Shown here piece after piece: positions 32,954 through 37,315 of a stretch of DNA of 41,014 nucleotides. The stretch spans positions 1 to 41,014 of the forward strand of contig JAJYUU010000024.1 of the NCBI GenBank assembly GCA_021792405.1, in the 5' to 3' direction. The position numbers and the translations under genes were made by a program. Each line of letters starts with the position of its first letter. Position 1 is the stretch's first letter. Origin of the DNA: Actinomycetes bacterium (lineage in GTDB: Bacteria; Actinomycetota; Actinomycetes; Streptosporangiales; Streptosporangiaceae). Below the pieces are notes generated by a model, which made no database searches, was not told the DNA's origin, and worked only from the letters and a program-made list of their open reading frames with translations.

Positions 32954-33925
32954 CTACTCGGTGGCCGCCCTGTCGCCGTCGCTGCCCTCGCCGTCGCTGC
33001 CCTCGCCGTCGCTGGTCTCGCCCGCAGCGCGATCGTCGCCAGCCAGCAGCAGGTAGGCCGGGCGCAACAGGGTAACCAGGTCCACGCCGCCGGCCGTGAT
33101 CATCGGCGGGTCGAGGCTGCGCAGTAGCAAGTCGGCGGGAGCCGGGGCGGCGGGCGGCAGCGCTCGCAGGCGGGCACTACTCAGCGATGTGGACCAGAAC
33201 CCGGCGATGCACTCGGCCAGTGGCTTGCCGGCAACGTCGATGGCCTGCCGCGGACCGGCCGGTGATTCCCCGCCATCCCCGCGCTGGCCAGACCCGGGCG
33301 CGCTAACCCCGAGCCTGCCGTTAGCCCGCGCTCCGCTGCTCCGCAATGCCGCCAGCAGGTCCGCCCGGCCCTTGCCGCGCCACGCGAGCATCGCGAACGG
33401 GTCGTCGTCGAACGTCTCGGCCAGCACATAGCAGACCGCGGCCAGGTGCTTGCACGGCACCTCCCAGTCCGGGCAGGAGCAGGTCATCTCCAGGTCGCGG
33501 GCCGACTTCGGGAACAACGGCGTGCCACAGTCGGCGAAGACCTCCTCGATCTCGGCCGGCATCTCCCCGGCGAGCAGCCGGGCACGGAAAACGGCCCGCG
33601 CGGCGAGTGCCTCCTCCACTCGCCGCCACTGCGGCGTGGTCAGCGGATCGACCGTAAGCTTCACCCGGTACGGCTTGACCCGCGACCCCTGCACGCTTGC
33701 CGTCACGTGCCCGGTGCCGATGTCCAGCGTGAGGACCTGCCCGGACCTGGCATAGTTGCGGCCGCGGCTGAGCCTGCTGCGCAGCCCGAACGACTCCAGC
33801 ACGTCGATGAAGCGGCGTGACCACCACTGCTCGCCGATCGAGCCGCGCTTGCTGCGCGCCTTGATGCCGCCCGCGGCCTTGCGCGGTCGCGACGGCGCGA
33901 AGCGCTCGCCATCCCAGCCGCTCAC
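32954..33925 (-). CDS. SWIM zinc-finger protein
   Basis: A 323-aa protein with the SWIM motif TCSCPDWEVPCKHLAAVCY (Cys149, Cys151, Cys158, His160), usually a DNA- or protein-binding zinc finger. The N-terminal IGEQWWSRRFIDVLESFG is typical of the SWIM protein that partners bacterial SNF2 helicases. The C-terminus ends in an acidic GEGSD repeat. The GTG start at 33925 overlaps the stop (GTGA) of the last mini-ORF in a repeat array leading from the SNF2 stop, so its translation probably depends on re-initiation after SNF2. Confidence 0.93.
   Translation of the reverse strand: MSGWDGERFAPSRPRKAAGGIKARSKRGSIGEQWWSRRFIDVLESFGLRSRLSRGRNYARSGQVLTLDIGTGHVTASVQGSRVKPYRVKLTVDPLTTPQWRRVEEALAARAVFRARLLAGEMPAEIEEVFADCGTPLFPKSARDLEMTCSCPDWEVPCKHLAAVCYVLAETFDDDPFAMLAWRGKGRADLLAALRSSGARANGRLGVSAPGSGQRGDGGESPAGPRQAIDVAGKPLAECIAGFWSTSLSSARLRALPPAAPAPADLLLRSLDPPMITAGGVDLVTLLRPAYLLLAGDDRAAGETSDGEGSDGEGSDGDRAATE
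32975..33019 (-). repeat. 15-bp x3 in-gene tandem repeat
   Basis: Units gccgtcgctgccctc at 32975-32989 and 32990-33004, plus a diverged third, encode the acidic GEGSD tail of the SWIM protein. Confidence 0.85.
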
Positions 33926-33929
33926 CGTG

Positions 33930-33991
33930 CTCGCCTCATTGGGCTCGCCTCATTGGGCTCGCCTCATTGGGCTCGCCTCATTGGGCTCGCC

Positions 33992-33999
<8 letters not shown>
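33930..33999 (-). repeat. 14-bp x5 perfect tandem repeat forming a stop/start ladder
   Basis: Five identical units; on the minus strand each reads CCCAATGAGGCGAG. The first contains the SNF2 stop (TGA, 33992-33994). Every unit holds ATGA, so an ATG overlaps each stop. Each ATG opens a 5-codon ORF (MRRAQ; the last is MRRAR) that ends in the TGA overlapping the next ATG, and the final TGA overlaps the GTG of the SWIM gene (GTGA). The AGGCGAG in each unit gives a purine-rich Shine-Dalgarno-like segment. The unit is not a multiple of three, yet copy changes preserve the relay. Confidence 0.95.
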
Positions 34000-37228
<3,229 letters not shown>

Positions 37229-37315
37229 GCCACCGCACCCCGCACTTGCCGGGACTGTCTGGCAGGAACCTAGCAATCATCCGGCGCGGACACGCCGCAA
37301 ACCGGTGGTGCTCTG

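Follow-up and report, generated by a model that had tools for sequence, protein, structure and literature searches.

The genes of an SNF2-family helicase and a SWIM zinc-finger protein are joined, in the actinobacterial DNA examined here, by an unbroken ladder of overlapping stop and start codons built from a 14-bp tandem repeat. We consider it rather likely that the two genes form a translationally linked pair, and that an array made by slippage is tolerated between them because the link stays whole at any copy number. Comparison of sequences from related genomes suggests that conservation applies to the link, and that the repeat number is free to drift. The window (the whole stretch of DNA that was analysed, 41,014 nucleotides) belongs to a genome of 5.39 Mb in 314 contigs.

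The SNF2 gene, the upstream member of the pair (33992..37276, minus strand), is an ORF of 1094 amino acids with an uncertain start codon and a TGA stop at 33994-33992. Its product matches the Pfam families SNF2-rel_dom, DUF3670 and Helicase_C. The SWIM gene (32954..33925, minus strand; ORF of 323 amino acids) has a predicted GTG start, and the Pfam SWIM match of its product is weak (residues 148-167, 23.7 bits for a cut-off of 19.6). Read directly on the minus strand, NTGA overlaps run without a break from the SNF2 stop through five mini-ORFs to the SWIM GTG, with such an overlap at every step. The SNF2 frame finishes with ...TCC CAA TGA, and its terminal ATGA opens the first mini-ORF, ATG AGG CGA GCC CAA TGA (33978..33995). 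The same letters, again with an ATGA overlap, make up the second (33964..33981), third (33950..33967) and fourth (33936..33953) mini-ORFs. The fifth (33922..33939) reads ATG AGG CGA GCA CGG TGA, and its stop lies over GTGAGC, the GTGA of which is the SWIM start. All five, located on the minus strand, are 18 nt long, contain five codons and step by 14 nt, with their ATG codons at 33995, 33981, 33967, 33953 and 33939 and the SWIM GTG at 33925. A GAGG motif resembling a Shine-Dalgarno sequence, and possibly acting as one, lies 8 nt 5' of the SWIM GTG (33934..33937, minus strand); further copies (33948-33951, 33962-33965, 33976-33979 and 33990-33993, same strand) each lie 8 nt 5' of the next ATG.

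Tandem Repeats Finder places the array at 33929..33999 (minus strand), with period 14, 5.1 copies and a 100% match; its score of 142 is the highest of the 56 rows obtained for the window. Both this program and the direct reading confirm the ladder of 14-bp units between SNF2 and SWIM that had been proposed in a first-pass annotation. The units had there been described as five identical ones, which is true of four: in the phase of the mini-ORFs, units 1-4 are identical and the fifth carries two changed bases within its 14-bp unit (GCACGG compared with GCCCAA in that region). Since 14 is 2 modulo 3, the stop belonging to every ATG falls over the next start, which makes stepwise reinitiation possible in principle, and the chain cannot be broken by a change in copy number. 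The earlier statement to this effect follows from the arithmetic alone, and congeners with different numbers of units (see below) all stay linked.

The array exceeds chance, being a perfect tandem repeat and the single site of its kind in the genome: its stretch matches one place only, and nowhere else in the 5.39 Mb does ATGA recur four times at 14-nt intervals (the array itself gives two overlapping matches). A dispersed or mobile element was rejected, given the one matching place and the unlike units of the other ladders listed. No promoter-like or terminator-like sites were found by a consensus scan of positions 33850-34250, a type of scan that other classes of promoter escape, and an internal promoter or terminator was rejected on that result. 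There is no case for RNA structure: a 131-nt stretch folds slightly better than its shuffles (z of -1.56, equalled by 13 of 200 shuffles), and the two-unit relative does not (z of 1.00). A role in defence was set aside as well; the PADLOC matches of SNF2 fall mostly within the helicase part. The same genome has a second SNF2-SWIM pair (L313, G000:C226), with a SWIM protein about 40% identical.

A SWIM match is present in eight of the nine genomes of the window's genus. Copy number varies between species: the first-pass annotation had proposed counting the copies in relatives, and the count in three congeners is five here, two in the closest relative (G004, with a SWIM protein 95% identical) and one in G006, whose unit shares 11 of its 14 bases with the last unit of the window's array. 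The strain-level variation expected in that annotation is not supported by this comparison, which was made between species. The array is a tandem repeat in the ordinary sense, with near-identical units placed head to tail and a copy number that differs between relatives; its copies probably arose by slippage. Single mini-ORFs with a 26-nt step are found in G007 and G008, and one with a 44-nt step in G003. SNF2 and SWIM overlap directly in G001 (L009) and at L037, a record taken as G002.

A wider comparison started from 116 SNF2-SWIM loci; removal of 16 duplicates and of nine loci that lacked a SWIM match within 600 nt left 91 distinct junctions with predicted SWIM starts. At 76 of them the genes are direct neighbours or overlap. 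This group consists of 75 direct junctions and of L279, classed as spaced by the script but really an overlap of 14-38 nt; it is counted here as close, yet enters both P values given below. Among the direct junctions, 67 have the SWIM start no more than 10 nt from the SNF2 stop (40 of the 67 by NTGA) and eight have a SWIM frame already open upstream of that stop. A true spacer separates the genes at the other 15 junctions. Mini-ORF bridges are retained across these spacers, which are unlike in length and sequence: ten are crossed by a bridge with NTGA at both ends, with steps of 14 x 5, 14 x 2, 14, 20, 26, 26, 44, 59, 62 and 113 nt, and four more (L013, L058, L061 and L076) through other short overlaps or gaps. 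L013 is without weight, because nearly every random spacer (0.98) would be bridged there. In all, 14 of the 15 spaced junctions are bridged, which supports a linkage of SNF2 to SWIM that is retained among relatives. By the definition used, L027 is the unbridged one. This junction (genome G058, from another genus) contains four 15-bp repeats of separate origin, which do not form a ladder since a period of 15 leaves one frame open.

The bridges were compared with a null model in which the flanks were kept, the sequence and length of the spacer were randomised and the NTGA ends were taken as given (16 rows, including L279). Against such random spacers, and with relatedness ignored, 14 of 16 junctions are bridged where 7.0 are expected (P = 8e-6), and 10 of 16 have strict NTGA-to-NTGA bridges where 4.3 are expected (P = 3e-4). 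Independent cases are few, L002/L003 and L006/L007 being homologous pairs; for a smaller set lacking L003, L007, L058 and L061, the P values are 0.013 and 0.004. With the window locus and L007 set aside, the same random-spacer null gives the other eight NTGA-to-NTGA bridges a joint chance of 0.001. For a second operon pair, studied in one genus, 27 junctions are direct and three are spaced, and all three are bridged, one of them having been chosen for its ladder. To judge from these alignments of stops and starts, the linkage of SNF2 to SWIM appears to be what the relatives retain, the ladder being an extreme case.

In published accounts, the NTGA overlap (-4 nt) is by far the commonest spacing motif among closely spaced ORFs (PMC12548453, PMC6728339, PMC10666635) and translational coupling at NTGA is standard (PMC6728339). 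Each rung of the ladder has this same start/stop geometry; the difference is that the ladder strings together five hops, by way of five-codon frames, where the usual pair has a single direct overlap. With reporters in E. coli and Haloferax, a spacing of about 20 nt almost abolishes coupling (PMC10666635), so a gap of 66 nt without a bridge should impair the SNF2-SWIM link or abolish it. The chain supplies an NTGA contact at each step of this gap. The review PMC12548453 cites some E. coli studies with coupling across longer spacings, so that a bridge need not be required.

We therefore picture SNF2 and SWIM as a translationally linked pair, which in relatives usually has its stop and start in short, direct overlap. 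Slippage in the window's lineage would have copied a 14-bp unit bearing GAGG, a start and a stop. A terminating ribosome could, in principle, reinitiate at each rung and lastly at the SWIM GTG. The array would be tolerated whatever its copy number, as the 14-bp step preserves the link, and the copy number itself may be near neutral.

Similar arrays are distributed throughout the family. Of 341 family genomes, 63 contain four ATGA spaced at 14-nt steps, and nine contain the backward pattern (hand count). In a common sample of 200 genomes, those with ATGA arrays number 9, 10, 35, 10 and 19 for periods 11, 13, 14, 16 and 17, and those with the backward ATGA controls 1, 5, 7, 6 and 8; the control tallies and the period-14 ATGA tally on 200 genomes are hand counts of table rows, and the genomes, related by descent, are not independent. 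CTGA arrays, which contain a stop without a start, are commoner, being present in 85 of 200 genomes at period 14 and 69 of 200 at period 13, with 28 and 12 of 200 for their backward controls (AGTC). At period 14, CTGA exceeds its backward control (85 versus 28); one such array is found in the window's own genome (G000:C184:71958-72017).

The neighbourhoods of 74 ATGA arrays at 70 loci were studied among the matches listed, four loci being counted on both strands; the neighbouring genes were predicted by a home-made GC-frame caller, which treats the orthologues L126 and L127 differently. Among these listed matches, 33 of the 74 arrays are flanked by genes that both run in the direction of the ladder and 28 by convergent genes; 28 start on an upstream stop, 13 finish on a downstream start and six do both. 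Because of the arrays between convergent genes, an array by itself is no evidence of a coupling device, and many 14-bp ATGA arrays cannot serve as one. The idea of a special device is weakened by the family-wide occurrence of such arrays, by the commoner stop-only arrays, by the lean of the backward controls to period 14, by the convergent sites and by the absence of the L107 ladder from its congeners, described below.

These distributions could be taken to mean that the window's array results simply from neutral slippage where a gene ends, with a chain of mini-ORFs that is incidental to the duplication of an ATGA-containing stretch and plays no role in translation. Stop-bearing arrays are indeed common in the family and, among the matches listed, 28 of the 74 ATGA arrays have convergent neighbours. 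This explanation nevertheless fails to account for the bridges in the right frame that contain no tandem array (steps of 20, 44, 59, 62 and 113 nt), and we regard it as unlikely.

The array might, instead, be a copy-number rheostat, in which every further unit alters the proportion of SWIM to SNF2 by a single reinitiation step and selection favours slippage for the variation that it creates. Congeners do differ in copy number, and the unit length keeps any copy number viable. The ATGA arrays, furthermore, lean to period 14 over period 13 (35 versus 10) more than the CTGA arrays do (85 versus 69; Fisher P = 0.009). This lean cannot be called special to ATGA, however: it does not differ from that of the two backward controls (7 versus 5 and 28 versus 12; P = 0.27 and 0.46), one of which, AGTC, has a preference of its own for period 14 (28 versus 12 of 200, P = 0.012). 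Likewise, no preference for periods 11, 14 and 17 over 13 and 16 was detected relative to the backward controls (P = 0.14). These comparisons do not establish a period preference that depends on the start codon, and we do not claim one specific to ATGA. As each unit brings a GAGG of its own, any effect could go in either direction. Finally, L107 in another species is a comparable ladder, with five rungs and diverged interiors, and no ladder of at least three rungs is present at the 29 other loci examined in its genus, which were obtained from a search of 53 other genomes; long-term conservation of ladders was rejected on this ground. Regulation by copy number, which the first-pass annotation had inferred, is not supported and in our opinion quite improbable. 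In a broader version, the unit number would set how many reinitiations a ribosome has to survive on its way from SNF2 to SWIM, and like ladders of separate origin between other operon genes of these actinobacteria would act alike; this is if anything less probable still.

A few species of another genus illustrate how such leaders change. Ahead of a gene of 177 amino acids, the rungs are spaced 14, 14 and 14 nt apart at L244 and L245, 11, 14 and 14 at L246, and 20 at L249, differing by species but always 2 modulo 3. At L247 a single ATGA is followed 18 nt later by an ATG in frame, and L248 has a second ATGA 10 nt further, within the predicted gene. Ladders come and go; across these few species, most steps retain their value modulo 3.

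At the spaced junctions, conservation of a ribosome-binding site is roughly as frequent as that of the frame: GAGG is found within 18 nt 5' of the SWIM start at 10 of the 15, and at eight of the ten with NTGA-to-NTGA bridges. Given how frequent this motif is, fresh entry of ribosomes at SWIM has to be considered seriously, in place of reinitiation or together with it. In its strong form, that the array serves as a group of ribosome-binding sites admitting new ribosomes near SWIM, with irrelevant stops and starts, this hypothesis fits the GAGG placed 8 nt ahead of each start but is very doubtful, because the frame is also kept, including at the NTGA-bridged junctions without GAGG (L004 and L008, the latter with GGAG instead), and because among the matches listed only 11 of the 74 arrays have GAGG in at least half of their units.

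The nearest precedent for the ladder is provided by the mycobacterial interspersed repetitive units (MIRUs), reportedly described by Supply et al. in 1997. MIRUs are longer than the 14-bp unit and occur in tandem between senX3 and regX3. Like them, the window's repeat contains a short ORF that stands at -4 nt relative to its downstream neighbour. According to PMC12548453, the ORF of a MIRU is coupled in this way to the gene that follows, so that insertion is thought to be nearly harmless, and MIRUs are present in many mycobacteria and apparently mobile. The window's array differs from the elements described there in occupying one site of its genome, and the units of other ladders are unlike it.

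Short translated ORFs that boost translation of the next gene have also been reported for the axe-txe minigene (PMC8708949) and for ORF-11 of integrons, where ribosomes are loaded at its own site (PMC8876359). They resemble the ladder as short ORFs delivering ribosomes to a downstream gene, but neither is a tandem ladder. In the ladder of the window, in contrast to ORF-11 as described in that source, the ribosomes would be supplied by the upstream gene. The first-pass annotation had held that no tandem reinitiation ladder was described. None was found in the literature searched, the scope of which excluded most subscription journals; the claim of novelty is nevertheless weakened by the MIRU ORF at -4 nt, as PMC12548453 presents it.

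The ladder offers a natural test bed for serial termination and restart by one ribosome. The comparison of junctions hints at a rule by which, when coupled genes drift apart, the gap is filled by a mini-ORF in the one frame that brings the ribosome back to the next start. As for the repeats, they have the look of drift inside this bridging rule. If the rule were general, many of the short frames found between genes of an operon would act as bridges instead of coding for proteins.

Several other arrays have features of their own. L144 (genome G302, rungs at 1493 to 1759) is a 14-bp ladder of 20 rungs between genes of the same direction, leading from the upstream stop to the downstream start. 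Arrays based on TCATGA (L089, L120, L130 and L131) can be read as ladders on both strands. At L131 and L154, TTCATGAAC-like palindromes recur at 14-nt steps between divergent genes, and resemble an array of operators more than a ladder.
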